A DNA stretch of 26,044 nucleotides from a virus. The stretch covers positions 1 to 26,044 of the IMG/VR virus record IMGVR_UViG_3300007963_000039; one strand, 5' to 3'. Positions 1 through 22,763 of this stretch are shown here, one piece after another (within the stretch, counting starts at the first letter, position 1; the number at the start of each line of letters is the position of its first letter). A model generated the notes under the pieces. It had not been told where the DNA came from. It was given only the letters and a program-made list of their open reading frames with translations, and did no database searches. The position numbers and the translations under genes are program-made.

Positions 1-495
1 AAAGTCTTCTTCATACTGATCCCCGTAAGAGCCACCCTCTTGATAGCGTGGGATAAGGCCACCACCAGCCATAGGCATTCCAGCGGCCATTGCTCCACCT
101 TGTGGCATACGAGGTATTCCAGGCATAGGTCCACCTGCTCCACCAGGAACTTGAGGAACACCAGGTGATGGCATAGGTTGACCCGGACCTTGTCCAGGCA
201 TACCAGGCATACCAGGCATCTGTCCACCAGGTTGTCCACCAGGTTGTCCAGCATTTTGTCCAGCACCTTGTGCTAAATAATCTGCAAGCTTTGTTGCTAT
301 ATCTTGACCTGGCTCAGGTATACCAGCGGCCTTTTCTAAGGCTTCAATGGCCGTATCATTCTGTTGCATCCTTTTAGCTCTATCTGCAAAAAGATATTGC
401 GCAATGATAGGATGCCCCTTTCGTAGACCATCTTCTACTTCCTTACGAGATAGAGACTCTACGTAGGCCTTTTGTTGTGATATGGAAGCACTCAT
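1..495 (-). CDS. Partial Gly/Pro-rich virion protein with GGLIP-type motif (C-terminus off the window)
   Basis: The reading frame opens with ATG at 495 and stays open for 165 codons to the left edge, so the C-terminus is missing. Residues 1-85 look helical and charged (starts M-S-A-S-I-S-Q-Q-K, then a stretch with KGHPIIAQYLFADRAKR). Residues 86-140 are collagen-like and low in complexity, rich in Gly, Pro, Gln and Met, with repeated G-Q-P-G and M-P-G. Near residue 144 comes G-G-G-L-I-P-R-Y-Q-E-G-G, the same motif as in the two genes upstream, followed by an acidic stretch. Its start overlaps the stop of the preceding gene as ATGA, so it is probably translationally coupled to it. I do not recognise a named family. 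By position, after the tail nozzle gene in a P22-like order, it may be an internal or ejected virion protein; this is inference. Confidence 0.8.
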   Translation of the reverse strand, partial: MSASISQQKAYVESLSRKEVEDGLRKGHPIIAQYLFADRAKRMQQNDTAIEALEKAAGIPEPGQDIATKLADYLAQGAGQNAGQPGGQPGGQMPGMPGMPGQGPGQPMPSPGVPQVPGGAGGPMPGIPRMPQGGAMAAGMPMAGGGLIPRYQEGGSYGDQYEEDF

Positions 496-2504
496 TGATA
501 GTGTATCCTTCCGCCTGCGTACAGGCCGTCTATAAGTTTTTGATGGTACGGTGCTAAAATTCCTAAGCCATTATTAGTGCTGGCCACATAACCTCCCCCT
601 GCACCCTGCACTTCTGGCTGCACTTCTGGGGTTGTTGGATCACCATCTGCATCAAATCCAAACTCATCACCTAGATCATCGGGAATCTCTGCATTTGGAT
701 CTGCTGTTTCTTGACCTGACTGCCAGTCTTTGTACGCACCGTATGCACCAGTTGCATCAGACATAAATCCAGGTTCTGCTTTATAATCACTGATGACCTG
801 AGTATTCTGATATGGTAACTGATTCATCATGCTCAGTGCAGTCTGTGTCTGTTGCTGTGGATAATCACGCTGTGCTTGGAAGTCTTGATAGCCAATATCT
901 AGGTCTCTTTGCTGTTCTTGCTGTGTCCTAGCACCAGCCTGTTCCATGGCCTGTAGCCTCTGCATTTGCATCTGCTGTTCTCTTTGAGCTTGTGTACCCA
1001 TACCACCAGCAATGTTAGCCATCTGGCCACCCATTTGAGCCACTTGACCGAGTGCCTTTCCTTGAGCATCAACAGCACCCTGCTGTCTTCCAAGCATCTC
1101 GCCCGAAGCTTTTAAGCCTTGTAGGCCAAGCTGTGTGCCACCCTGGGCAGCTTGGTATCCCTGCTGTTGAGCAGTAAGAGCTTGTTGCTGTCCTGTAGCC
1201 TGAGCCTGAGCAGCTTGTTGCTCTGCTGTTAGCTGTTGTCCTAGACCTTGCTGTTGTGCAGATCTATCTGCTTGGAATGCCTGCTGTGCAGACTCAAATG
1301 CTTTCTGTTGTTGGCCACCAATAATGTCTGCAGCCTGCTGTGATACATCTCTAGCCTGCTGTGCAGCCTGAACACCCTGTCTCATACTACCAAGGTTACC
1401 CGATGTAGCTGCCTGTGATGCGAGTTCCTGTCCTTGTATTTGTTGGAATTCTCTCAAAGCTTCTAGCTGTGGATCGGTAACTCCTTTGCCATACTGAGAC
1501 ATGTAGTCCTGTAGGTTGGCTTGCGTTTGCATCTTAGGAGCGCCCATTTGCTGTCCTACGCCACGCATAGCTGTAGCAGCTTGACCAGCCTGTTGTTGTG
1601 ACTCACGACCAGTGCCTCTCATTCCTGCACCAGCTAACTGACCTTGCAGTTCGGCTCGTTGTCCTAGTTGTTGTGCACCTGTAGCACCTTGAGAGAATTG
1701 CTGTGCTAATTGGCCATACTGTGGCTGTAGTCCTTGTATTCCTTGGGCTGCCCCACCAACCATACCTTGTGCCTGTGTATAAGCATCTGCGGCTTGTTGC
1801 GTACCTGCTGGGCCTGTACCACGACCATAGGCACCATAAGCAGACCTAGCTAACGCTTGGTCCTGTGTAGTACCTGCTAATCTTTGCCCACCGTATGCTT
1901 GATATGGCTGACTAGCAATATTTTGTATATTACCTGTCAACTGAGCAGATAGCTGTGCCTGTTCAGGAGATACAAAGGATTCAACCTTTCTTTGCTGTAC
2001 TGGTCCACCTGGAGCATAACCAGATATCATTCCACCAGAAGCCCTCCCTCTCCATCCCTGAGCTTTTTTTGCTAACATACTCATTATACGATCTTTATAT
2101 TCCCTATCACTAAGTGCGTCTGGCCCTGACGTAGGGTTGACTATAAGTCCTGTTGACCCCGGAATCATATCTACAACCGCATCTACACCTGCTAGTGTTG
2201 TTCCTGAAATACCAGCACCACCATACTTAAAGAGCTTCTTTAATAGGTCATCTTCCTCTTTGGCTGAATCAAACATGTTTTTAAGAAGGTCTATACGATA
2301 GCTATCCTCGCGTCTACGAGGAGTTCTAGCTTCCTGTGTCTCAAGTACACCACCTTCATCATAGCCAGGAATCATTCCACCAGATGCTCTACCCATCGTG
2401 GGTTGCGTAGCTCCAAGCATCCTACTTACAAGTCTACGTATATCGGAGGGAACTTCTCCTCCTGCTTGATACGGGGGGTATCGTCTATTCATATCTTTCA
2501 CCAT
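492..2504 (-). CDS. Gln/Ala-rich virion protein with two GGMIPGY-type motifs
   Basis: This 670-aa protein has three visible parts. Residues 1-170 carry two copies of a motif beginning R-A-S-G-G-M-I (near 39-52 and 154-167) and a partial one near 13-18. Between them is a Gly/hydrophobic stretch (about 94-122) that could associate with a membrane. Residues 180-560 are extremely rich in Gln, Ala and Gly and probably form long helices. The last 110 residues are acidic, then Gly-rich. ATG at 2504 overlaps the preceding gene by 20 bases; a second ATG at 2492 has GGTGA about 7 bases upstream and may be the true start. Shared motifs tie it to both neighbours. An ejected or internal virion protein, comparable in position to the P22 ejection proteins, is my best guess, but no homology to these is visible. 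Confidence 0.85.
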   Translation of the reverse strand: MVKDMNRRYPPYQAGGEVPSDIRRLVSRMLGATQPTMGRASGGMIPGYDEGGVLETQEARTPRRREDSYRIDLLKNMFDSAKEEDDLLKKLFKYGGAGISGTTLAGVDAVVDMIPGSTGLIVNPTSGPDALSDREYKDRIMSMLAKKAQGWRGRASGGMISGYAPGGPVQQRKVESFVSPEQAQLSAQLTGNIQNIASQPYQAYGGQRLAGTTQDQALARSAYGAYGRGTGPAGTQQAADAYTQAQGMVGGAAQGIQGLQPQYGQLAQQFSQGATGAQQLGQRAELQGQLAGAGMRGTGRESQQQAGQAATAMRGVGQQMGAPKMQTQANLQDYMSQYGKGVTDPQLEALREFQQIQGQELASQAATSGNLGSMRQGVQAAQQARDVSQQAADIIGGQQQKAFESAQQAFQADRSAQQQGLGQQLTAEQQAAQAQATGQQQALTAQQQGYQAAQGGTQLGLQGLKASGEMLGRQQGAVDAQGKALGQVAQMGGQMANIAGGMGTQAQREQQMQMQRLQAMEQAGARTQQEQQRDLDIGYQDFQAQRDYPQQQTQTALSMMNQLPYQNTQVISDYKAEPGFMSDATGAYGAYKDWQSGQETADPNAEIPDDLGDEFGFDADGDPTTPEVQPEVQGAGGGYVASTNNGLGILAPYHQKLIDGLYAGGRIHYQ

Positions 2505-5500
2505 AGCTAAGAGGCACTACCTCGCTTAAATCAATTGGGTCAGGCTGTATTGCTGTACCCGTTCTATCCATTCTAACATCCGTAACAAATTGATCCATTA
2601 CGTCTGCACCACGCTCTGTGTTGCCACTACCTAAGTGGCCTACAACATCACCTGGCACAATATATTCTCCAGCAGATACAGCTATAGTTTGTTTATCACC
2701 ATTGGCATTCATCGTTGCATTTACATAAATGTCATCAGCCATTGCGTCTCCGCCACCACCATTAATTAGACCACCTTCCTGCATAGGTTGTTGCTGTGTA
2801 GCGGCCATCTGTTGTGATAATGCTTGTATTAGCTGATTCAAATCTGCTGAAGTTAACTGATATTTTCTCATTACTCGTTCTACTGTTTCTCTTGAACCAG
2901 GAGAGTCTAGTTGCATTGATGCCTGTGCTAAGGCTTGCAAATCTTCAGGACTTACATTTTCTACTAAGCCACCTTCAGCCATCCCGAGTCTAGACAGAAG
3001 CCCTGCACCACCAGCATCACCTGTGGCTGCGAAGTCCTCAGCAGTTCTCGGAAGTTGATGTGGATCAAGTCCACTCATTTGCTTATCAACAGGAGCCTCT
3101 GCATTTGGGTCAAACCATTTCTTTTCACCGTAGAATCCTGATCCTGCACCTGAAGACGGATTAACTGGTCCAGTAGCCATGGTCTGGCCTGTCGCTTCTG
3201 AACCAGGCATTGTTCTTGTTGCTCCGGCTGAACCAGATAAGCCTTGGTCATAGCCATGTCCCATGTATGGACCTTGTGCTGCAATGTACTCTTCGTCTCG
3301 TGTTACCTCACCAGTATTAAGATCAAGTTTTCCTGAAGGTGCTACGGCTGCATCCTTCTTCATGTCTGCTGCTTTTTTATCGTCTATGGTATATAGATCC
3401 TGCTCATCCACCTCACCCATTTCTTCAACTTGTTCGCCTGCATCATCTGGATCAAGCTGGTTGGTTGCGGCAAGCTCTTTCTTCGCTTCAGTCTGTGCTT
3501 GCTCTACCTGTCTTTCCATTTCTTTTTCCATCTTGCCAGCACGTTTGTCGATCTCTTCTTGGGTCATTTCTCGCTTGCCTTCACGCACCTCTTCAGGAAT
3601 GTCCCCGTAAGGATTCATGTCATAAGTAGTTTCTATGCTACGTTCTGGTGCTTGTCCATACTCTCCTGGATCGGCAGTTGCAAACGGATCTAATTCACCT
3701 TCACCTTCGCCTTCTTCGCCAGGTTCTGGCATAAAGGCAGCTGTCTGTGGAACAACATCTCTAACCTGATCTACAACAGGTTGAGTAGGCGCCTCGTACT
3801 CATCTTCTCGAGGTGCTATTCTTGGTCGTGTAACACGAGACCTACGAGATCCAGTACCTCTACCTTGTGGCATAGTTCTTGGAAGATATGGTGCTACACC
3901 AAACTCATCGCCACCTTCTTCGTCACCATACATTCCACCATACTGGTAGCCTGGTATCAAGCCACCAGATGCTTGGGCATAATTTACTGCTGGTTGATTG
4001 CCATACGTTAGTTGTCCTGCAACACCTTGACGTTGAGGTTGTTGAGTAACTTGTCCAGGCATAACACGCCCCTGCGTACTCATTGGATTTACCATGCCTA
4101 CATTACCAAACCCACCTTCTCCTTGAGCGGCTTGTTCTGCGGCACCTCTTTGGCCAGCTGCCTCGGTTACGCCAAGTGATAGTAGATCTCCTGGGTCTAT
4201 ATCACCAGCTACATCAAGGACTTGTTTACCAATATCTTTATCAGTAAGGGCTGTCTTAATCCCACCCCATAGTCCCTTATCTTTTAGTCCTTCAATGTCA
4301 CCTAGCTTGTCGCCAAGGTTTCCAATCATACGAGCCCTATTAGCACCTTGTGCCAATCGACCCAAGTTAAAACCTTTACCCGATGTTACATCGCCAAGTG
4401 CTGTACCTAATCCACCTAATCCCATTCCGGCTAATGTGCCTACACCAGGAATCATACTTGCAAATGGTGCTGCTACTCCTGCTGCCTTCCCGAGTCCTTT
4501 ACCTAGAGACTTAATCCCCTTCATTAAGCCACCAAGGAAGTATCCTGGCACTTCTCCACCATGTGCATAATCTGGCACCATACCACCGTGTGCCAAACCA
4601 ATAATACCACCAGACGCTCTGCTAATTAGAGGAGGTGCGGTCGCTCCGGTTCCAAGAGGTCTCATAAAATCTTCATCATATACTGGTCTATCTAAATAAT
4701 TACCTAATAATCGCGACATCGCACCTGCTTCTTCCGATTCACGACTTGCTCTTCTCTCATTAAACAGTGCTTCTAACTGAGCATTCCTCTCTTCAGCCTC
4801 TGCTTTTTCAGCAATCATTCTATCAAATTTACTACTAAGGTCAGAATCTCTAGCCTCTAAAGTATTACCAAGTAATTGTGACATCGAATTTACTTCTTGC
4901 AATTCACGATCCGCCCTTCTTTCATTAAACAGTGCTTCTAACTGAGCATTTCTTTCTTGAGCCTCTACTCTTTTAGCTATATCATTTTCCATAAGCCATT
5001 CTGCCATAGGCTCTATGTCCAACTCACTACTAGAAGGACTCCTTGTTGCAACAGCCTTTTCTGGTATGCCCGACAAGAAACTATCCATAACACTATCTCG
5101 TATATAATCGTCTCTTGTCCCTATCTGATCCATAAGTAATTCTTGCATTTCAGCGTTTTCAAACAATTCACGGGGCGAAACATATGGTCCCCTTCCTAAT
5201 TCTGGATTCTCCCATTCACCGTCTGCGACATATCCTCGCTCACCAGGCTCGAGAGGAGCCGATGGAGAAGGTAGAGGTTTTAAGTTTTCTCTTCTTGCAG
5301 TATAGTCAGCTAAGTCTTTAGCCATAGATTCCCTAGCTTCACCTGCTGCTATAAGGGACTCGACTTCAGTCATTTGTGGCCCCAACCTACCAGGTGAAAA
5401 CATAGCAGGCTTGTGAGGTACTCCTTTAAACTTCGACTCCCAACTGTATGGACCTAATTTAAATGGATTATTCGCCCCAGGAGGGCCACCATTCTGATAA

Positions 5501-6072
5501 CCTGGAATTCTGCCACCCATACTCATCTCCACTGGTTCAATTTTTAATCTCCATTCTTGTTCTGCTAATCCACCGCCAGTGCCTTGTTCTGAAGGTGCTG
5601 GAGATAAAGGTTTGGCAAAGCCTGGTCCACTCATTGGTCTAGGTGGAGCCTGCTCTATCATCGGCCCCATCCTTGCTAAATCATATGGTGACGGCCTAGC
5701 AGCCCCAATCATTTGGCTAGGATCTTCTTGAGGCCGTAGAGGTGTACCATCATAGCTTGTAGCACCTGGTACTGGAGGTCTACCACCTAAACTTTGACCT
5801 CTCGACTCTATAGCAGCAGTAGTCTCTTCATCGGTAAGACCATAGCGAGCCTGAACATCAGCCCTATGTCCTGACATGTCTGGTGCAGACATCTGTTGAC
5901 CTACACCGATCATACGAGATGTAGGTGCATCAAGTGACATATTTTGAAATGGTTGGCCCATATCTTGACGACCCAACTGTTCGACCATACCAGGCTGTGG
6001 CTGATATGGATTACTAGACATCATCTTTCCACGTAATCCAGCTAGGCCACCATAGGGAGAAGCTAATTCCAT
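2485..6072 (-). CDS. Large (1195 aa) low-complexity virion protein, multiple GG-IPGY motifs
   Basis: This is the longest gene in the window. Residues 1-370 are Pro/Gly/Met-rich, with one motif (M-G-G-R-I-P-G-Y-Q-N-G-G, near 185-196). Residues 373-461 hold a charged 55-residue tandem repeat. Residues 485-515 contain several overlapping G-G-x-[IV]-P-x-Y units, followed by a Gly/Ala-rich amphipathic or hydrophobic stretch (515-570) that could interact with membrane. Another copy (A-S-G-G-L-I-P-G-Y) lies near 701-709. A very acidic region (about 715-900) precedes a C-terminal domain (about 1030-1195) with two degenerate motifs and the stretch SAGEYIVPGDVVGHLG. I recall similar C-terminal stretches in large virion proteins of marine phages. 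ATG directly follows the upstream TAA. Function is unknown; an ejected or tail-internal protein is inferred from position after the nozzle gene. Confidence 0.85.
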   Translation of the reverse strand: MELASPYGGLAGLRGKMMSSNPYQPQPGMVEQLGRQDMGQPFQNMSLDAPTSRMIGVGQQMSAPDMSGHRADVQARYGLTDEETTAAIESRGQSLGGRPPVPGATSYDGTPLRPQEDPSQMIGAARPSPYDLARMGPMIEQAPPRPMSGPGFAKPLSPAPSEQGTGGGLAEQEWRLKIEPVEMSMGGRIPGYQNGGPPGANNPFKLGPYSWESKFKGVPHKPAMFSPGRLGPQMTEVESLIAAGEARESMAKDLADYTARRENLKPLPSPSAPLEPGERGYVADGEWENPELGRGPYVSPRELFENAEMQELLMDQIGTRDDYIRDSVMDSFLSGIPEKAVATRSPSSSELDIEPMAEWLMENDIAKRVEAQERNAQLEALFNERRADRELQEVNSMSQLLGNTLEARDSDLSSKFDRMIAEKAEAEERNAQLEALFNERRASRESEEAGAMSRLLGNYLDRPVYDEDFMRPLGTGATAPPLISRASGGIIGLAHGGMVPDYAHGGEVPGYFLGGLMKGIKSLGKGLGKAAGVAAPFASMIPGVGTLAGMGLGGLGTALGDVTSGKGFNLGRLAQGANRARMIGNLGDKLGDIEGLKDKGLWGGIKTALTDKDIGKQVLDVAGDIDPGDLLSLGVTEAAGQRGAAEQAAQGEGGFGNVGMVNPMSTQGRVMPGQVTQQPQRQGVAGQLTYGNQPAVNYAQASGGLIPGYQYGGMYGDEEGGDEFGVAPYLPRTMPQGRGTGSRRSRVTRPRIAPREDEYEAPTQPVVDQVRDVVPQTAAFMPEPGEEGEGEGELDPFATADPGEYGQAPERSIETTYDMNPYGDIPEEVREGKREMTQEEIDKRAGKMEKEMERQVEQAQTEAKKELAATNQLDPDDAGEQVEEMGEVDEQDLYTIDDKKAADMKKDAAVAPSGKLDLNTGEVTRDEEYIAAQGPYMGHGYDQGLSGSAGATRTMPGSEATGQTMATGPVNPSSGAGSGFYGEKKWFDPNAEAPVDKQMSGLDPHQLPRTAEDFAATGDAGGAGLLSRLGMAEGGLVENVSPEDLQALAQASMQLDSPGSRETVERVMRKYQLTSADLNQLIQALSQQMAATQQQPMQEGGLINGGGGDAMADDIYVNATMNANGDKQTIAVSAGEYIVPGDVVGHLGSGNTERGADVMDQFVTDVRMDRTGTAIQPDPIDLSEVVPLSYGERYE
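4690..4956 (-). repeat. 55-residue (165-bp) tandem repeat inside the 1195-aa gene
   Basis: Two copies of a charged helical segment start with E-R-N-A-Q-L-E-A-L-F-N-E-R-R-A and end with a form of S-x-L-L-G-N, offset by exactly 165 bases. The second copy is incomplete at its C-terminal end. A 29-base stretch is identical at 4757-4785 and 4922-4950, which suggests recent duplication or selection on the DNA itself. Heptad-like spacing suggests a coiled coil. Confidence 0.85.
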
Positions 6073-6405: not shown

Positions 6406-6601
6406 TACTGGCTCCTAGCAATAAGAATTGATATTTACGCAATGACAAAGAACTGTCTTTATCGTCTTGTGTTTTAACAGATTCTAAATCACTGCTAACA
6501 TCCTGAAAGTTTTGTTCAATAGTTCTACGAGATATGCTTTCGTTAATCTCATCGTATTCTGATGGTGCCACATTAAGTGGCCGGTATACTTTTAAGGTCA
6601 T
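6398..6601 (-). CDS. Small hypothetical protein downstream of the nozzle gene
   Basis: This is a 67-aa protein with a mostly polar, charged sequence (VAPSEYDEINESISRRTIEQ, then several Asp/Ser-rich turns) and a slightly hydrophobic C-terminus (YQFLLLGASNG). GAGAGG-type purines (GAGAGGATAGC) lie just upstream of the ATG, and the start overlaps the stop of the nozzle gene by 4 bases. The first half looks helical and may oligomerise. I do not recognise a characterised family. Because it is locked between the nozzle and other structural genes, a minor virion or assembly role is likely. Confidence 0.75.
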   Translation of the reverse strand: MTLKVYRPLNVAPSEYDEINESISRRTIEQNFQDVSSDLESVKTQDDKDSSLSLRKYQFLLLGASNG

Positions 6602-8979
6602 CGTCTGCTATCCTCTCTGCCATCAAGTCTTACAAATCCTACACGCCATCCATATCCTGCACCACTGCTTTGTACCTTCATGGATACCTGCCTAGCTCTC
6701 CCACGAACATGAGCCTGATCAGTACTCGAGGTAAAAGCTGCTGAGGCTATGGAACTTTGACTATCTGCTGGAAAGTTATGACCATTAAGACTAATAGTAA
6801 CTTCATCAGTAGATTCAGCATTCTTAAAATGAATGTCAGGTATTATCCTATGGATAGACCAAGTTTTATCTCCTTCTCCAAGGTCCATATCGCCTGTTTC
6901 TATATATGCTGTCATTGCAGACTGATCATCGTCATGTCCACTTTCATGGTTATATAATACGTTTTCGTATAAAATCTCTACAGTTCCACCGCCACCTGTG
7001 TCTGCTGTAGCAGTATCTGCTATCGTAATGGTGTAATTATCAACATCTGTGACCGAGACTACGGTATGTTGGTTGTTTAGCAGTAAGGCTTCTAGCCCTC
7101 CAGTTGCTGATGCACCCTTAATTATGATAGTGTCACCTACAGATAATCCATGATTTGTACTGCTAATAGAAACATTACTCGTAGAGGCAGTAGTTGTGGT
7201 CAGTGGATTGGTAGCCAATTCTTTTGTAAGTATGGAAGAAGCTATGGGGTATGTCTTAGTTACAGCCTGGTTCCATTGTCCACGGGCCAAGCTTCCTGCA
7301 TACCAAGCATTCTCTTCATAATTAAAAATTACATACTTATCATTACTGCCATCTCCTGATGCAGATGGATAGAACCATATAATTTCTGAGAAATCTGGAT
7401 TTGATCCTGCTACAACTTTAAATGTTTGATCTGTATCAAAATCATCAAACACTGTCGTTAGTATAGGACACGGTAGCTTTTGAACACTACCAGCATACCT
7501 ATAGAAAGCTCCACGATCCATAAAGTAAACTGTTCCGTTAGCGTTTACTGCAGCATTTGGAGAGATCATTGAAATACTTCTTGCTACTTCTGTAAATGAG
7601 AAATAAAAGGGACTGCCCACATATCTCATGCTGACCATACCTGCATCAGTCCAAATCAGTATTTCCTGTCGGGTTGCCATGCCTGCAATGATCTCAGAGC
7701 CTGATGACAGTTTCTGACCACCAGCGCTGTTTGTAGCCAATGCTTGCCATGTGCCTACAGTTTCAGAGCTAGACCACCTCACATTCAATGGATCTATTGT
7801 TGTAGAGTTTATATCTGTGGCTCCAAGACATACAACGTGTCTGGCTACATCTGACATTAAGACTTGAATAGCACCGACCGGGGGATAGTAAGTACCTGCC
7901 TTGTAAGAAGCTGTAACACTCGATCCACCAGCAGTTGCAGTACCAGAAGCATTGGCGCCACCGAGATCTGCCGTGAACTCCGCCTTATTCGTTACAGAAG
8001 CAACTGTCATTTCTACATTTAATCTTGCCGCACTAATGCCACCAGTTGCAGTAGCCCCTGCTATCGTCACTAAATCTCCGACGGCTGCACCATGCCCACC
8101 TTTATCTTTTACCGTAACAACCGTGCTACCACTTGCAGTTGTTATAGGATTCGATGTAAGAGTTAGAGACCTACGGACAACTTCTTCTAAAGGTATTGCT
8201 CTAGTCGAAGTTCCATTGCTTTCATCCCAGTAAAAGATTTTACCTTGGCGTACACATGCAAGCATGTCATCACCAAAGTTATCTATAGACCAGAGACGTA
8301 GCTGGTTCGCTTGTCCAATTCCTGTGGCCGATCCCCATGTGCTTGCACCCCAAGTGCCTGAGCCATAACCACCACCAGATACATAAGTATCCAGGCCTAC
8401 ATTAATTTGAAATGCAGCAGTTACACTTGACCCGCCTTCGGCTGTATCTGTAGATGTAGCCTGAGCATCGCATACGACACGAAACTTAGTAGTAGTGTCA
8501 GACCCATCTGGAGCACCTAATGCTGCAATACGATGCTCTTTATTCAGGCTACCAGTACCAATCCCACCTGATGCTGTCGCGCCAGCTATAGTCACATAGT
8601 CTCCTACCACTGCCCCATGAGCACCGGATGTAGTAATTGTGATCACAGCAGTCTCGTCTACAGTAGCTATTGGGTCTGTACCCAGGGTTACAGAACTGCG
8701 AATCGGAGTAACATCATAATATCCACCACCCAGGTTAACGTATAGCTTTAATGTCGTCCCGAGACCTAGATATTGTCCACCGTCGTCAGTCACCCAGTCA
8801 TGGAGACTTCTACATACGCCCAAAAAACGAGCAGTTATATACTTAGACCATCCACCGATCTTTTCTATAAAACCCTTACGAAACCGGACCTTATCAGCAT
8901 CATACCATGTTCCTTCAGCAGAATACCTGGTGCCGTCAGTAACCATACCCGCTTTCGGGGCAATCTTCATCAATGCCAT
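6598..8979 (-). CDS. P22 gp10-like tail nozzle / packaged-DNA stabilisation protein
   Basis: This 793-aa protein opens with a segment typical of gp10-like phage stabilisation proteins: GTWYDADKVRFRKGFIEKIGG near residues 23-43, then CRSLHDWV and YLGLGTTLKLYV. In P22, gp10 forms a hexameric beta-propeller ring below gp4 that plugs the tail and holds packaged DNA. The remaining core (about 193-270, 361-587 and 673-793) contains WxxGS/WSIDNFGDDMLAC-like blade strands and W-T-D-A-G-M and Y-F-M-D-R-G-A-F-Y segments. Three related domains of 85-96 residues are inserted near 97-192, 272-360 and 588-672. Removing them leaves about 520 residues, close to the 472 of P22 gp10. Its start lies 1 base from the stop of the small lipoprotein gene. 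Family assignment is by recalled motif, not alignment. Confidence 0.75.
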   Translation of the reverse strand: MALMKIAPKAGMVTDGTRYSAEGTWYDADKVRFRKGFIEKIGGWSKYITARFLGVCRSLHDWVTDDGGQYLGLGTTLKLYVNLGGGYYDVTPIRSSVTLGTDPIATVDETAVITITTSGAHGAVVGDYVTIAGATASGGIGTGSLNKEHRIAALGAPDGSDTTTKFRVVCDAQATSTDTAEGGSSVTAAFQINVGLDTYVSGGGYGSGTWGASTWGSATGIGQANQLRLWSIDNFGDDMLACVRQGKIFYWDESNGTSTRAIPLEEVVRRSLTLTSNPITTASGSTVVTVKDKGGHGAAVGDLVTIAGATATGGISAARLNVEMTVASVTNKAEFTADLGGANASGTATAGGSSVTASYKAGTYYPPVGAIQVLMSDVARHVVCLGATDINSTTIDPLNVRWSSSETVGTWQALATNSAGGQKLSSGSEIIAGMATRQEILIWTDAGMVSMRYVGSPFYFSFTEVARSISMISPNAAVNANGTVYFMDRGAFYRYAGSVQKLPCPILTTVFDDFDTDQTFKVVAGSNPDFSEIIWFYPSASGDGSNDKYVIFNYEENAWYAGSLARGQWNQAVTKTYPIASSILTKELATNPLTTTTASTSNVSISSTNHGLSVGDTIIIKGASATGGLEALLLNNQHTVVSVTDVDNYTITIADTATADTGGGGTVEILYENVLYNHESGHDDDQSAMTAYIETGDMDLGEGDKTWSIHRIIPDIHFKNAESTDEVTISLNGHNFPADSQSSIASAAFTSSTDQAHVRGRARQVSMKVQSSGAGYGWRVGFVRLDGREDSRR
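6964..8691 (-). repeat. Three repeated domains inserted in the nozzle protein
   Basis: Related segments lie at about 8404-8691, 7900-8166 and 6964-7218. Each contains T-x-P-[IL]-[AT]-T, then H-G-[AL]-x-V-G-D-x-[VI]-x-I-x-G-A-[TS]-A-[ST]-G-G, then a strand near H-R-I or T-V-x-S-V, and ends near S-S-V-T-A or G-G-T-V-E. The DNA has diverged more than the protein, so these are old domain duplications rather than recent copies. They are probably small beta domains that decorate the tail. Confidence 0.8.
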
Positions 8980-9814: not shown

Positions 9815-11935
9815 CTATAGGTCTTCAACTTCCTCTGGTTTTTCACGTTCAAGGATTGGCCTTCCATCGCTATCCGTCCATTCCGTATCATACATATGTT
9901 GATCCTGACGTTCAGCTACAACAAGCCATGACACTGTATCAGTGCAATCGCTCTCTTGGCATTCAATAGTCAAAGTGCTTCCAGATACAGAACCCTTAAC
10001 CATATCCCAGCCTGTCTCGTTTGTAGTAAAACAGGTAGCATCTCTGCATAATAATTCCCAAGTTCCAGCAGTCATTCCAAACTCAGCGTTCATCTCTACT
10101 GTAGCTTGTCCATCTACAAGGTCTATCTGCCCACGATAAATCAAGTCGGCTCTTGGTCCCTCAATAAACGAATGATATAAATCATGCGTATCTTTCATTG
10201 AAGGCAATGGATGGTCGATCTTAAATGATCCAGAACCTTTTGATAATGCTCCACCAACAGCTACATCTTCTCCACTACACTGGATAGCATAATTGGTATG
10301 GATAGTGGCGTTAGAACTGATGTAGTACTTGTTATCTGCTCCCCTAACCCCTGCTTGGAAGTGAAGTACTTGGCCACTACCCCCATCGTTCTCATAGTAT
10401 TGAATAGCCCCTACACCAGTATTACCTGCCTGCAGTCTTATATATGGATTTCCGCCACTTGAAGCGAAAAGGAAAGAATCAATCCCTTCGGTAGTGAGGG
10501 TTACCACATCTCCCGCAGATTCTGATAGGTAGGTGTTGCCTGATGCCGATCCATCTAGCCGTAATTTGTCAGTGGCACCAATAATAATGTCAGCACCAGC
10601 CGATACATTACCTGTTAAGGTAGATGTTCCGCTAACATCCAGTGTACCATTTAGGTCTACTGCCGTGGCGTTTAATTCTATCTCGTCAGTAGCATTAATG
10701 TCTAATATTGCGTTTGATGGGGCGTTAATATACTGACTAGCATCGTTGAATTGGATAGCCATGGTGCTGTTTAGTAGCAACCCTGTGTCTGCAACATGAG
10801 TCAGAGTCACATCCGTATCTGCACCAAAACCTAAAACTGCCGCATCACTGACCAGCGTAAGATCGTCACCAACCGTTGCATCTCCTGACATTGTGACATT
10901 TCCCGTAAGTGTCGATGTGCCAGAAACATCTAGCGTTCCGTTAAGATCTACTGCGGTAGCGTTTAATTCGATTTCGTCTGTGGCATTGATGTCTAGAACC
11001 GTAGCTGAAGGAGCATTGATATATTGACTAGCATCGTTGAACTGCAAAGCCATAGTGCTATTCAGAAGTAATCCTGTATCTGCTACATGGGTTAGCGTAA
11101 CATCTGTATCCGCACCAAACCCCAGAACCGCAGCATCACTCACTAAGGTGAGATCATCTCCGACGGTTGCATCTCCTGACATTGTAACATTACCAGTAAG
11201 TGTTGATGTACCCGATACGTCCAATGTTCCATTTAAATCAACTGCTGTTGCATTAAGTTCAATTTCGTCTGTAGCATTAATGTCCAGTATCGCATTTGAA
11301 GGAGCATTTATATACTGACTGGCATCATTAAATTGAATTGCCATCGTAGAATTGAGAAGCAATCCTGTATCAGCCACATGAGTCAGATTCACATCTGAGT
11401 CAGCACCGAAGTTTAAGACAGCCGCATCACTTCCAAGTGTCAGATCATCTCCAACACTAGCGTCACCACTCATAGTGACTGCACCAGCTACAGTAAGTGT
11501 GCTACTTAGCTCTAGGTCAGCAAATGCATCTAGTACTGCTGCTCCAGATCCAGCACCATCTGTAAGCACTGCTGCTATCTTACCATTACCTATGGTGATG
11601 TTAGCACCAGAGCCTTGACTGATAATAATATTCTGTGAGCCGCTTGTAGCATTCTCAATGAACCAAACCTTATTAACAGTATTAGGTGCAATCGTAATCG
11701 TACAAGCAGAGTCTAAAGTACCTGTGTACTTAAGGAAGATCGCACGACCTTCGTCTGCTGCACCATCTGCTATGGTCGTAGTATGAGTATCAGCGTTAGT
11801 AGTAATGGCCTCTGTGCCAGAACCAAACGCATCAGCTATTAGCTCTAAGTTTGTGTTGGTCTTGGTTCCCCAGGTACCTGACTCATCACCCGTAGTGATT
11901 TCCAAAAGTCTCAGATTATTTACATATGTTCCCAT
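9815..11935 (-). CDS. Tail fibre with three 97-residue repeats
   Basis: This 706-aa protein starts with GTYVNNLRLLEITTGDESGT and W-G-T-K-T-N-T-N-L-E-L-I, an N-terminus I know from marine podovirus fibres and which probably anchors to the tail. Residues about 140-445 contain three repeats of 97 residues with strands such as VGDDLTL, LLLNSTMA and IELNATAVDLNG, as expected for a trimeric beta-structured shaft. The C-terminal part from about 560 begins FKIDHPLPSMKDTHDLYHSF and ends with conserved-looking ERQDQHMYDTEWTDSDGRP; it also has clustered cysteines (C-R-D-A-T-C and C-Q-E-S-D-C). This is the likely tip. AGGAA lies 9 bases before the ATG. Host binding is inferred from the architecture. The N-terminal and C-terminal matches are from memory, not a search. 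Confidence 0.85.
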   Translation of the reverse strand: MGTYVNNLRLLEITTGDESGTWGTKTNTNLELIADAFGSGTEAITTNADTHTTTIADGAADEGRAIFLKYTGTLDSACTITIAPNTVNKVWFIENATSGSQNIIISQGSGANITIGNGKIAAVLTDGAGSGAAVLDAFADLELSSTLTVAGAVTMSGDASVGDDLTLGSDAAVLNFGADSDVNLTHVADTGLLLNSTMAIQFNDASQYINAPSNAILDINATDEIELNATAVDLNGTLDVSGTSTLTGNVTMSGDATVGDDLTLVSDAAVLGFGADTDVTLTHVADTGLLLNSTMALQFNDASQYINAPSATVLDINATDEIELNATAVDLNGTLDVSGTSTLTGNVTMSGDATVGDDLTLVSDAAVLGFGADTDVTLTHVADTGLLLNSTMAIQFNDASQYINAPSNAILDINATDEIELNATAVDLNGTLDVSGTSTLTGNVSAGADIIIGATDKLRLDGSASGNTYLSESAGDVVTLTTEGIDSFLFASSGGNPYIRLQAGNTGVGAIQYYENDGGSGQVLHFQAGVRGADNKYYISSNATIHTNYAIQCSGEDVAVGGALSKGSGSFKIDHPLPSMKDTHDLYHSFIEGPRADLIYRGQIDLVDGQATVEMNAEFGMTAGTWELLCRDATCFTTNETGWDMVKGSVSGSTLTIECQESDCTDTVSWLVVAERQDQHMYDTEWTDSDGRPILEREKPEEVEDL
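10610..11482 (-). repeat. Three 291-bp direct repeats in the tail-fibre gene
   Basis: Copies start near 11482, 11191 and 10900 and are offset by exactly 291 bases, so the reading frame is kept. The second and third copies are nearly identical in protein, while their DNA differs at many third positions. Each includes the segment NATAVDLNGTLDVSGTS. Unequal exchange between copies could lengthen or shorten the fibre. Confidence 0.9.
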
Positions 11936-11950
11936 GCTTAATTCCTATTG

Positions 11951-12589
11951 TTATGTTGGGACTTCTTCCCAGTCTGGCGTTTGAGAATCACTAACTCCGG
12001 ACCAGCTTGGTGTTTGCGAATCACTGACATCAGACCAGCTTGGTGTTTGTGCATCATTTACACTAGACCAAGAAGGTGTTTGTGAGTCGCTAACTGCTGC
12101 CCAATCTGGTGTCTGTGAATCATCTATTATCGTCCATATCTGTACACTGCTTATTCCTGTCGTACCAACCACACCACTCGCACTTACTGTTACTCCAGTA
12201 CCACCAGTTGCTGTTACCGAGCCGACAGATCCTGTTGCCGTTTCACCTGTTACAGATAAATTGGCATCTCCAGTTACTGTAACCGAACCTACCGCACTTG
12301 TCCCAGCTAATCCTGTTAAGGTAACATTTGCTGTTCCCGTTACCGTAACACTTCCTACACTTCCTGTTGCACTTACACCCGTAGCAGTAAGATTTGCATC
12401 TGCTGTTACAGATACTGACCCTACTGAGCCAGTACCTGCTAACCCTGTTTCGGTAATAGTAACATCTATTACTACCGACTCATCACCTACTGCACTCGTT
12501 CCTGCTACACCTGTAACTTCTACAGGTATAGCTTCACCCCATGTGCCAGAACCCCATGTAGATCGGCCCCAGCCTGTTATATCAGCCAT
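11951..12589 (-). CDS. Repeat-rich virion protein with SDSQTPSW tail
   Basis: The 212-aa product starts MADITGWGRSTWGSGTWGEA. Residues about 25-150 are built from Gly/Ser/Thr/Val repeats of 22 residues containing G-S-V-G-S-V-x-V-T. Residues 156-210 hold five 11-residue units of the type S-D-S-Q-T-P-S-W-S-x-V. There is no signal peptide or membrane helix. The composition suggests a beta-structured, surface-exposed filament or fibre attachment, and similar W-G-x-S-T-W-G starts occur in marine phage tail regions as I remember them. It lies 15 bases upstream of the tail-fibre start, so a partner of the fibre is plausible. The function is unproved. Confidence 0.75.
   Translation of the reverse strand: MADITGWGRSTWGSGTWGEAIPVEVTGVAGTSAVGDESVVIDVTITETGLAGTGSVGSVSVTADANLTATGVSATGSVGSVTVTGTANVTLTGLAGTSAVGSVTVTGDANLSVTGETATGSVGSVTATGGTGVTVSASGVVGTTGISSVQIWTIIDDSQTPDWAAVSDSQTPSWSSVNDAQTPSWSDVSDSQTPSWSGVSDSQTPDWEEVPT
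11960..12124 (-). repeat. Five 33-bp tandem repeats coding SDSQTPSW units
   Basis: The units code D-D-S-Q-T-P-D-W-A-A-V and four variants of S-D-S-Q-T-P-S-W-S-x-V. Copies share Gln-Thr-Pro-x-Trp and a terminal Val, with changes mostly at the ends and at third codon positions. The invariant Trp every 11 residues suggests a stacked or solenoid-like structure. Confidence 0.9.
12125..12520 (-). repeat. 22-residue (66-bp) Gly/Ser/Thr/Val repeats
   Basis: About six degenerate copies, of which the best are TGVSATGSVGSVTVTG, TGLAGTSAVGSVTVTG and TGETATGSVGSVTATG. The period of 22 is exact among these three. The first copy is diverged (TGVAGTSAVGDESVVIDV). Confidence 0.8.
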
Positions 12590-19596: not shown

Positions 19597-20016
19597 TTAT
19601 GCCCTTTCTACGCCTCTGGGGTCTTCTACGACCGCCTCTACAGTGTCATCGTTGATTAAGCGAAATTCTTTACCATGAATTTTTATTCTTGTACCACTAA
19701 AGGCACGAAATACCACCCAATCGCCCTCTTTACAGTAGGGACCACTGGGAAATCTCGAAAAATTGCCGTATGCATCAGGTCCAGCCTTCAAAACAAAGCC
19801 TACAACAGTAGAAATTGCCTCTTCATGCTGACTTTGTGCCGATTTTATGATGCCACCTTCGGTAGTTTCATCGATTTCTGGGAGTGCAATCAGCAACTTA
19901 TAGCCTTTTGGCTCTGGAAGTTGCGATGCGGTACGAGCAGAGTCGTCACCATCTTTGAATGTGATCTCTTCGACATCAATAACAGGATTTTCCACTTCTT
20001 TTGCGAGTGTCGCCAT
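19597..20016 (-). CDS. GroES-like co-chaperonin
   Basis: The 139-aa protein has an extra N-terminal 30 residues, then a Cpn10 domain. It begins PKGYKLLIALPEIDETTEGG (about 36-56), with the mobile-loop-like E-G-G-I-I-K-S that would bind host GroEL (compare GroES G-G-I-V-L-T). It continues VVGFVLKAGPDAYGN and CKEGDWVVFRAFSGTRIKIH, then GKEFRLINDDTVEAVVED, matching the order of GroES strands. The phage T4 gp31 precedent shows that such proteins can replace host GroES for capsid folding. Here it sits in the head operon between portal and scaffold genes, so a capsid-folding role is natural. The loop residues differ from bacterial GroES by having a Lys where GroES has Leu, which may affect affinity. 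Start has GAGAGG about 8 bases upstream. Confidence 0.85.
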   Translation of the reverse strand: MATLAKEVENPVIDVEEITFKDGDDSARTASQLPEPKGYKLLIALPEIDETTEGGIIKSAQSQHEEAISTVVGFVLKAGPDAYGNFSRFPSGPYCKEGDWVVFRAFSGTRIKIHGKEFRLINDDTVEAVVEDPRGVERA

Positions 20017-20257: not shown

Positions 20258-22763
20258 CGTTATTCTCTCGTGCTATATCAATCCCAAGCTTCATGCCGTC
20301 AATTTCTTGCTGAGTCTCAATATTAGATTCTTCTAAACCTAGTTTTGCAACTTCTATTTCTTTTTCTGTTTCAAACTGCCCTTGTTCAACAGCAAGTTTT
20401 TCTCTTTCCAACTGATCTTTAGCCATATCTGCTTGTTGTTTAGCTGCAATCTTCTGTTGTTCCAATTGTTGTTTAGCTGCAATCTTCTGTTGTTCCGTCT
20501 GTGCCTTGGCTTGATCTGCTTGTGCCTTGCGCTGTACGTCCTGCTCACGAATCTGTAACTCTTTCTCACGCTGCTGCACGATAGGATCTTTCTGCATCTT
20601 CGCATCCTTATCGGCCTTGGCTTTTGCTTTTTTCTTACCGAGCATCTGTTCTGCAGCCTCTGCGACAAGAGCACTAAGTCTCTTCTCAATATCTTCTGGA
20701 AGAGGTTGGTTTGCAGGTGGAAGTTCATAACCAAGTTCTTCTTCAATCTGATCACGGAATACAAATGCCAGGTGTTCCCTGAGATGAGCATCGAGTGCTG
20801 CCCCCATGGGACCACCCATCTTATTATTTTGCATTTGCTCTTTAATCTGAGGATCATTTTTCAAAACCATATGAACTTTCATGTGAGCATCATGGTCCTG
20901 ATACTCAAATGCTTTCACAGGCTTCATGGTAAGCAAGTCTTCGTTTTCACTAACTGGATCTGTAGGAGGAATCTCATCTGGCATCGGCACAATCTTATCT
21001 GCATTCGGTATACCTATGAGTTCCATCATCTGCCTATGAAGTAACGGCATGTCATACAATCCTGGTGACTGCTGTGCCAACTGCATTGCAGCTTGATACT
21101 GCATAATACGTTGTGACATTGTAGAAGCATTTGGATCAGATACAGGAATTACGTCAACACGATCATCGAAGTCTTCTACTTTAATTTCCTGACCTTCTTC
21201 TGTTTCGTATGGATATGCAGGGGATGTATAGTCTCGTATAATTCCTGCTAGAATCTTATACTCTTGTTTTAGACTAGCATGTATCCTGGCTTGGATCGCA
21301 GACTGTACTTTCATTGCCCGCTCCATAATCGCAAGCGTAGTTCCGACTGGAGCATTCTGATTCATGTCGGCAACCTTCATATCTGCCATCGAAGCAAATC
21401 TTCTTCCTTCGTCTACGATGTTTCCTAGTAGTTGGTAAAGGACCGAAGAAGGTTCTTTATACGGAAGAAAAGTGATGTTATCACGGATGACACCACCTGG
21501 CACATCAACGTCCCTAAACTCCCCGGGCATGATTGGGGTGTCGTCTCCTTTGATTCTGAGTCCACGAGTCTTCAATCCTCCAGGTAGATTGGATAGTGTG
21601 CCTGCATCAACCAACTGTCTAAGTAAGCTAGTCGCAGATTTGGCTAATCCACCAATCATGTGAATCAAGCCAAGATTATAAAAACCAATTCCAGGAACAT
21701 AACCATAATGCACAAAGTGCTGCTTCTTGATTCTGTTGGGATCTTCTTCAGCCCAGTTGCGATAAATTGACAGAACTGTTGCACTAGACTTGTCTATGGT
21801 AACGACATATGGCAGTGCAACTCCGTCTGCATCTTCAAACCCTGGCAAATCTAATACACAATGTATTTCGAGTAATTGATGCCTTTCGTTGTCATCCCAA
21901 GAAGGGCTTACGCCACCAATTTCATTAAACTTTTCAGTGATTGGATTGTCTTCGACATGAGATGTTTCCAACTCTATGTCCCGATAAAATCCATTAACTT
22001 GAAGTTTTCTAACTTGGTTGCTGCTACGATTCATCACATGGGTATATCTTTCTGCCTGATCGAGATCGGACTCATGGTATGCTACGACAAAATCTTCTGC
22101 GGGTACAAACATTGATGTCGGCCTACCCAAAGAAGGATCAAAATAAATTTTGCGAAACGCACTACCAGCAAGTGGTAGGCTAAACAAAAGCTTTTCTGTT
22201 TCTGACCTATATTCAGTCATCACTTCAAGAAGCTGGTAGTTCATATATTCTTGAACACGGTGTGCTTGTTGGGTGCGTTCAGGAGTGGTAACTCCCCAGC
22301 ATTGAGTTCGTACTGGACCCTTAGCTGGCATTACCTCCTGAATAGTCTGACTCTGAAATCTGACAACAGCCTCAGAAAGCATCGGATGGAATACTCCACA
22401 GGCTCCTGCCCACGGTGTAGTCCGGTCTTCTATCTCGAGGCCAAGTTGATCTAGACCTTGTTTGTATGTTTGTTCCCAGTCAGAACGGCTTGTTTTATCT
22501 GACTCAAATTTTGATATACAATCATTAGCTAGTGTTGTAAGTTCATCATCGTCAATAAACTCAGCTAAATTAGAATCAAACTGATCCTCCTGCATACCTT
22601 CTTCTGCCATCGGATCAAAATCTACAAGCACTCCACCATCATCTAGCTCAGTAACTAATGACTCGCCAAGATCATCTTCTTCTTCGGAAACCAATAATCC
22701 TTCTGGACCCATTTGAAAATCATCTTGATCAAGGAGTCCACTTAAAGGTCTATCTATAGCCAT
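20250..22763 (-). CDS. Portal protein with long coiled-coil C-terminus
   Basis: This 837-aa protein forms the ring through which DNA enters the head. Residues 1-75 are acidic. The core contains DCISKFESDKTSRSDWEQTY, TPWAGACGVFHPMLSEAVVR, FQSQTIQEVMPAKGPVRTQC, LPLAGSAFRKIYFDPSLGRP and VPGIGFYNLGLIHMIGGLAK, followed by YQLLGNIVDEGRRFASMADM. I associate this set with portal proteins of marine podoviruses related in layout to the P22 portal (725 aa). Residues about 690-837 are a charged, Gln/Lys/Glu-rich helix with 11-residue periodicity; P22 also has a C-terminal helical barrel above its crown. AAAGAGA precedes the ATG. The gene lies 71 bases from the terminase stop and overlaps the next gene, in the usual terminase-portal order. 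Confidence 0.85.
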   Translation of the reverse strand: MAIDRPLSGLLDQDDFQMGPEGLLVSEEEDDLGESLVTELDDGGVLVDFDPMAEEGMQEDQFDSNLAEFIDDDELTTLANDCISKFESDKTSRSDWEQTYKQGLDQLGLEIEDRTTPWAGACGVFHPMLSEAVVRFQSQTIQEVMPAKGPVRTQCWGVTTPERTQQAHRVQEYMNYQLLEVMTEYRSETEKLLFSLPLAGSAFRKIYFDPSLGRPTSMFVPAEDFVVAYHESDLDQAERYTHVMNRSSNQVRKLQVNGFYRDIELETSHVEDNPITEKFNEIGGVSPSWDDNERHQLLEIHCVLDLPGFEDADGVALPYVVTIDKSSATVLSIYRNWAEEDPNRIKKQHFVHYGYVPGIGFYNLGLIHMIGGLAKSATSLLRQLVDAGTLSNLPGGLKTRGLRIKGDDTPIMPGEFRDVDVPGGVIRDNITFLPYKEPSSVLYQLLGNIVDEGRRFASMADMKVADMNQNAPVGTTLAIMERAMKVQSAIQARIHASLKQEYKILAGIIRDYTSPAYPYETEEGQEIKVEDFDDRVDVIPVSDPNASTMSQRIMQYQAAMQLAQQSPGLYDMPLLHRQMMELIGIPNADKIVPMPDEIPPTDPVSENEDLLTMKPVKAFEYQDHDAHMKVHMVLKNDPQIKEQMQNNKMGGPMGAALDAHLREHLAFVFRDQIEEELGYELPPANQPLPEDIEKRLSALVAEAAEQMLGKKKAKAKADKDAKMQKDPIVQQREKELQIREQDVQRKAQADQAKAQTEQQKIAAKQQLEQQKIAAKQQADMAKDQLEREKLAVEQGQFETEKEIEVAKLGLEESNIETQQEIDGMKLGIDIARENNDE
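20433..20496 (-). repeat. 33-bp tandem repeat in the portal coiled coil
   Basis: A 31-base sequence is exactly repeated at 20433-20463 and 20466-20496 (period 33), coding two copies of Q-Q-K-I-A-A-K-Q-Q. An 11-residue period is typical of right-handed or straight coiled coils, so the repeat would lengthen the helix by 3 turns without changing its register. Confidence 0.9.

Follow-up and report, generated by a model that had tools for sequence, protein, structure and literature searches.

A conserved glycine-rich motif in three consecutive predicted internal proteins of a short-tailed phage and in phage tape-measure proteins

Tape-measure proteins (TMPs) and the ejection proteins of podoviruses are established functional analogues, as presumed builders of a conduit for phage DNA, but are described as sharing little sequence (PMC10883804), and the ejection protein sets of P22 and T7 share little recognisable sequence similarity with each other (PMC10883804, PMC8954989). 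The C-terminus of the T5 TMP, pb2, has been seen to be anchored in the hub, where it adjoins a transmembrane stretch (PMC10038345), and residues 1022-1066 of JBD30 gp46 are predicted to be a hook anchoring the protein in the baseplate after tail-end release (PMC11445458); partial retention of the protein together with a trans-envelope conduit is published for T5 (PMC10038345) and proposed for JBD30 (PMC11445458). The motif reported here is not described in a review of podovirus ejection proteins (PMC8954989; the word 'glycine' does not occur in it, and 'motif' occurs once in an unrelated sense), nor was a description of any of its forms (GGIVGF, GGRVGF, GGIVGL, GGxIPGY) found in the literature searched, many subscription journals lying outside that literature.

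The window analysed, a linear virus record of 26,044 bases from IMG/VR, is a contig of a short-tailed phage. Its late genes lie on the minus strand and include terminase, portal, a cpn10-like ORF, the major head protein, tail genes and a P22-gp10-like tail stabilization protein (phrog_3287; 6598-8979, minus strand); no tail-tube gene was recognised in the window, and an Rfam search of the window returned no match. Repeats were noted on the minus strand within a 706-aa tail gene (291-nt tandem repeat, about 2.9 copies, 10605-11455), at the C-terminus of a 212-aa tail protein (33-nt tandem repeat, 11975-12070, encoding QTPSWSxVSDS units) and in the 3' part of the portal gene (perfect 33-nt repeat, 20433-20496, encoding EQQKIAAKQQL units). 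Downstream of the stabilization protein, a candidate anchor partner, come a 110-aa protein (p110) and then three large proteins, consecutive as a sequence-only reading of this DNA had reported and all on the minus strand: slot A (2485-6072), a tape-measure-like internal protein of 1195 aa and predicted ejection protein; slot B (492-2504), an internal protein of 670 aa rich in glutamine and alanine; and slot C (1-495), the N-terminal 165 aa of an internal protein cut by the contig end, which is complete (680 aa) in a near-identical contig (L002:15254-17296). In L002 slot C is followed by a fourth large protein, slot D, which is partly known there and in its known part does not contain the motif; the slot D relatives in two other contigs (L017 and L008) yielded no family match.

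Relatives whose stabilization protein is 64-82% identical carry these three genes in an unchanged order, despite strong divergence of the genes. In each relative the internal genes start with slot A, behind the gp10-like gene and p110, and the succession of A, B, C and a large D, which places several large internal-protein genes side by side next to the tail genes, is the same throughout. Slots A, B and C are three consecutive internal (ejection-type) slots downstream of the P22-gp10-like tail protein, and their products are predicted to be carried inside the particle and, probably, injected with the DNA. None of the three window proteins had a match in PHROGs (E <= 0.001) or Pfam (E <= 0.05), PDB sequence searches with slots A and C gave none, and no sequence homology to the named T7 and P22 ejection proteins was detected in these databases.

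The sequence-only reading had attributed the motif GG[LIM]IPGYxxGG to all three proteins. The motif is genuine and occurs far more often than chance predicts, but that formula is too narrow: strict copies occur only in the 670-aa protein (residue 42) and the 1195-aa protein (residue 703), alongside six variants. Slot A carries GGRIPGYQNGG (residues 186-196; 5485-5517, minus strand), a triple tandem GGIIGLAH-GGMVPDYAH-GGEVPGYFL-GG (residues 488-515; 4528-4611, minus strand; GGIIGLAHGGMVPDYAHGGEVPGYFLGG) and GGLIPGYQYGG (residues 703-713; 3934-3966, minus strand); a helical, mildly hydrophobic segment (residues 516-649; 4126-4527, minus strand) comes after the triple copy and before this last one. 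Slot B carries GGMIPGYDEGG (residues 42-52; 2349-2381, minus strand) and, just before its conserved helical core (residues 180-561), GGMISGYAPGG (residues 157-167; 2004-2036, minus strand); slot C carries GGLIPRYQEGG (residues 145-155; 31-63, minus strand). The pattern GG.[IVL].GY..GG, observed two and three times in the two longer proteins, averaged 0 to 0.0005 copies in 2000 composition-preserving shuffles, and a looser form, observed once, twice and four times in the three proteins, averaged 0.0035, 0.002 and 0.0105 in as many shuffles; as a DNA pattern, GGxIPGYxxGG occurs three times in the window against an expectation of 0.00. Chance or composition is rejected as an explanation by these shuffles together with the permuted control motif described below. 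The observation that the motif often follows RAS or QAS holds for both copies of the 670-aa protein and for the copies at residues 488 and 703 of the 1195-aa protein, and the reported repetition of motif DNA was confirmed to within a few bases (ATCATTCCACCAGA at 2026 and 2371; CCACCAGATGCT at 2377 and 3962).

To score conservation, 13 orthologues of slot A and 12 of slot C were aligned with MAFFT and compared in stretches of 11 residues. In both proteins the motif copies rank highest among these stretches (97.6th to 99.9th percentile), MAFFT possibly anchoring on the motif and inflating the column scores, whereas the presence and spacing of the motif are independent of that. In slot A the first copy ranks at the 98.4th percentile, the triple copy at the 97.6th to 99.9th and the copy at residue 703 at the 99.2nd; the slot C copy ranks at the 99.85th and holds the only invariant columns of its alignment (G145, G146 and G154). 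Glycines are better conserved inside the motif than outside it (0.85 versus 0.39 in slot A; 0.98 versus 0.31 in slot C). Slot A orthologues follow a fixed plan of one copy, a tandem group and a further copy 186-223 residues on, the helical and mildly hydrophobic segment being enclosed by the last two; in the window protein the last tandem copy and the next copy start 198 residues apart (505 and 703). Slot B orthologues keep one of the two copies, that at residue 157 (88th percentile), and not that at residue 42. In the cultured relatives DSL-LC04, MinM2, HTVC027P and 023Pt slot B has no motif, and slots A and C of most of them contain partial motif units only. In relatives the motif is found again in the corresponding slots 3' of the gp10-like gene.

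A codon-level scan of IMG/VR for GGxIPGYxxGG found it in at least 120 virus contigs; among the matches listed, 138 of 138 are in the coding frame, and these matches represent 37 protein clusters unconnected by BLAST, whereas a permuted control motif (same residues, other order) was found in 6 contigs of the whole collection. The third codon positions of the motif are free to vary, and spread of a DNA element is rejected because these wobble positions differ. Cellular genomes (257 Gb) gave only 90 matches, 36 of them in a likely coding frame, of which about 15 read from their flanking sequence as prophage TMPs. More than 95% of the matches listed for the variants GGIVG[FL]xxGG and GGRVGFxxGG are in frame, the P-less variants also matching a few chance hydrophobic proteins, and all carriers of P and P-less forms together make up 91 clusters among the matches listed. 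Flanking residues outside the search pattern define the full unit as [MYFL]-A-x-G-G-x-[IV]-(P)-G-[YFL]-x-x-G-G-x-[VI], or in short (Φ)A-x-GG-x-[IV]-(P)-G-[YFL]-x-x-GG.

Thirty carrier representatives comprise about 12 from tape-measure families, one DNA-ejection protein (L134), two T7-gp16-like internal lysozymes (L346 and L366) and, for about half, proteins mostly with no family match; 72 representatives give a similar picture, with a few unrelated matches such as a holin. A random spread over unrelated proteins, which the sequence-only reading would have counted against a shared virion role, is not seen for the strict form, whose annotated carriers are tape-measure, DNA-ejection and internal-lysozyme proteins. 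Its proposal of a shared virion-protein tag is supported for internal ejection-type proteins, by the shared slots and the annotated carriers, but not as a general membrane-insertion tag or as a protease or transferase substrate. At loci with at least two motif genes, those with the P form are adjacent in 11 of 12 cases against 7.5 expected; adjacency of P-less forms is not above chance, and adjacency as a general rule is accordingly rejected. A related group of phages (L042, L055, L060 at 2699-2857 on the reverse strand, L069, L140 and L141) encodes basic proteins of 43-62 aa with the motif (MPGMNERKRHM...GGKIPGYxxGGGVG...KKKDRRP) directly upstream of a tail-adaptor-like gene; these do not look like ejected proteins and are an exception among the carriers.

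The C-terminus of slot A (residues 1095-1171; 2560-2790, minus strand; containing GGLINGGGGDAMADDI and SAGEYIVPGDVV) is, as judged by profile comparison, remotely homologous to the hook at the C-terminus of TMPs: it aligns with the siphovirus tape-measure C-terminal signature over 46 columns (hhalign Prob 94.3, E 9.6e-8) and contains the hook signature G.G..sDsI...lSnGEYVv. The slot A counterparts of DSL-LC04 (annotated as a tape measure) and 023Pt_psg01 match tape-measure PHROGs at their C-terminal end, and a hook-type C-terminus is also present in those of HTVC027P and MinM2. Several cultured short-tailed phages (L018, which is DSL-LC04; L020, which is HTVC027P; L022, L023 and L019) have proteins with a tape-measure-type hook at the slot A position, most of them annotated as hypothetical. 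The unit (Phi)AxGGx[IV] opens the hooks of JBD30 and Douge, and the JBD30 stretch that aligns with the slot A hook region (1016-1055) overlaps residues 1022-1066. In GGxIPGYxxGG a smaller unit, (Phi)A-x-GG-x-[IV]-x-G, is doubled; this smaller unit also stands at the start of the TMP hook. Although most motif copies are, in absolute numbers, not near a hook, 19 of the 136 distinct contexts of GGxIPGYxxGG have a hook/GPE signature no more than 60 aa away, where random positions give 6.2 +/- 2.2. A search with a composite synthetic peptide mainly matched the GPGTGTSDSI stretch of TMPs and is therefore kept as a pointer only.

We favour, tentatively and at a little short of an even chance, the explanation that GGxIPGYxxGG serves as a short linear docking motif and sits in the disordered linkers of proteins kept inside the virion until they are ejected along with the DNA. 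The unit would add as an extended strand to a partner, which might be the wall of the portal, nozzle or hub, or neighbouring copies of the motif; such docking could align, within the DNA channel, ejection proteins that are otherwise disordered, and could hold part of them back in the particle while the rest is pushed out as a trans-envelope conduit, the tape-measure hook then being the best-characterised instance. AlphaFold models of slots A and B have mean pLDDT values of 46 and 52, slot A being mostly disordered, and place the motif copies in linkers of pLDDT below 50 between helical parts (about 30 at the triple copy), as expected of a short docking motif. AlphaFold predicted no fold at the motif copies and no hairpin in the slot A hook region, and Foldseek searches returned nothing at E <= 0.001. 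Slot A also has, in its predicted coiled coil, a 125-nt direct repeat (81% identical; 4691-4815 and 4856-4980, minus strand).

Other explanations rank below docking. The same low-pLDDT linkers, together with the tandem repetition at slot A residues 488-515 and a composition rich in glycine plus one hydrophobic or aromatic residue, would also suit a cohesive 'sticker', in which glycine/aromatic segments, similar to FG-type stickers, would through weak multivalent interactions hold the disordered ejection proteins of the pre-ejection core together and involve no specific docking site. We consider this unlikely: the sequence is tighter than a sticker needs, with I/V at +3 and the glycine pairs near invariant and the spacing fixed, most carriers outside the window group have a single copy, and the position of the motif is conserved between orthologues.

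Less likely again is a membrane-insertion or fusion-peptide-like tag aiding the entry of ejected proteins into the host envelope. The triple copy of slot A does stand directly before the only hydrophobic stretch in most of the orthologues that show one, but the motif itself is not hydrophobic, and around 437 motif copies in all carriers hydrophobic segments are in no excess downstream (17 versus 16.1 at random) and in deficit upstream (6 versus 18.5). A general membrane tag, as the sequence-only reading had suggested, is rejected on this lack of association, the slot A placement aside.

Double glycines are common cleavage sites, and a phage or host protease might cut at the glycine pairs during maturation. 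The TMPs of T5 and lambda are cleaved (PMC10038345). T5, however, is cut after Arg1127 and not at a Gly-Gly pair (PMC10038345), a separate prohead protease was not recognisable among the window genes scanned, and a cut has no need of tandem copies with conserved I, P and Y. No evidence was found for a protease or transferase substrate role of the kind suggested earlier, and we regard a processing or modification site as improbable.

Still more improbable is a chaperonin-binding role, in which the motif would imitate GGIVL of the GroES mobile loop and recruit GroEL, the ejection proteins thereby staying unfolded. The forms GGIVGF and GGIIGL resemble that loop, a cpn10/GroES-like ORF with a mobile-loop-like TTEGGIIKSA lies in the head gene cluster (19597-20016, minus strand) and HTVC027P gp55 is annotated as GroES; the dominant form in the window, GGxIPGY, nevertheless breaks the hydrophobic triplet. 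A neutral artefact, in which glycine-rich linkers of mostly disordered Gly/Pro/Gln-rich proteins look alike by composition, is scarcely credible and is refuted by the shuffles, the permuted control, the in-frame occurrence of all the matches listed, the conservation percentiles and the variable wobble positions.

Beyond the docking motif lies a broader and more doubtful idea, that one motif in about 90 sequence-unrelated phage protein groups is a universal 'ejected-protein' code, which would mark proteins stored in the channel and delivered through it in short- and long-tailed phages alike and bind a common feature of that channel. If true, the code would be a sequence link between TMPs and podovirus ejection proteins. 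The presence of the motif in TMPs and ejection-type proteins suggests that it is a common component, not described until now, of the machinery by which phages deliver their DNA. It offers a way to pick out ejection proteins among the many phage genes that lack annotation and to test how such proteins are held in the virion.

Compared with T7 gp16-like internal lysozymes (phrog_342 and phrog_873), some members of which carry the P-less motif, this locus differs at slot D, the known part of which is without the motif in L002 and the relatives of which in L017 and L008 gave no family match. The window proteins have no sequence match in PHROGs, Pfam or PDB to the families of podovirus ejection proteins (T7 gp14, gp15 and gp16; P22 gp7, gp20 and gp16), yet resemble them in being encoded by adjacent, strongly divergent internal-protein genes after the tail genes and in their sizes, from hundreds to over 1000 aa (PMC8954989). 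From siphovirus TMPs the locus is set apart by showing only a P22-gp10-like short-tail gene, no tail-tube gene being recognised; by a slot A that is otherwise mostly disordered, unrelated to TMP N-domains and not a long helical rod setting tail length in a long-tailed phage; and by a motif that is repeated and spread over three proteins. Slot A nevertheless ends, like these TMPs, in a remotely homologous GGxI-x-G-x-G..DDI..SxGEY[IV] region, and TMPs are among the carriers of the full motif. Tape-measure proteins and podovirus ejection proteins are linked by this small conserved motif and by a C-terminal hook that they share remotely.
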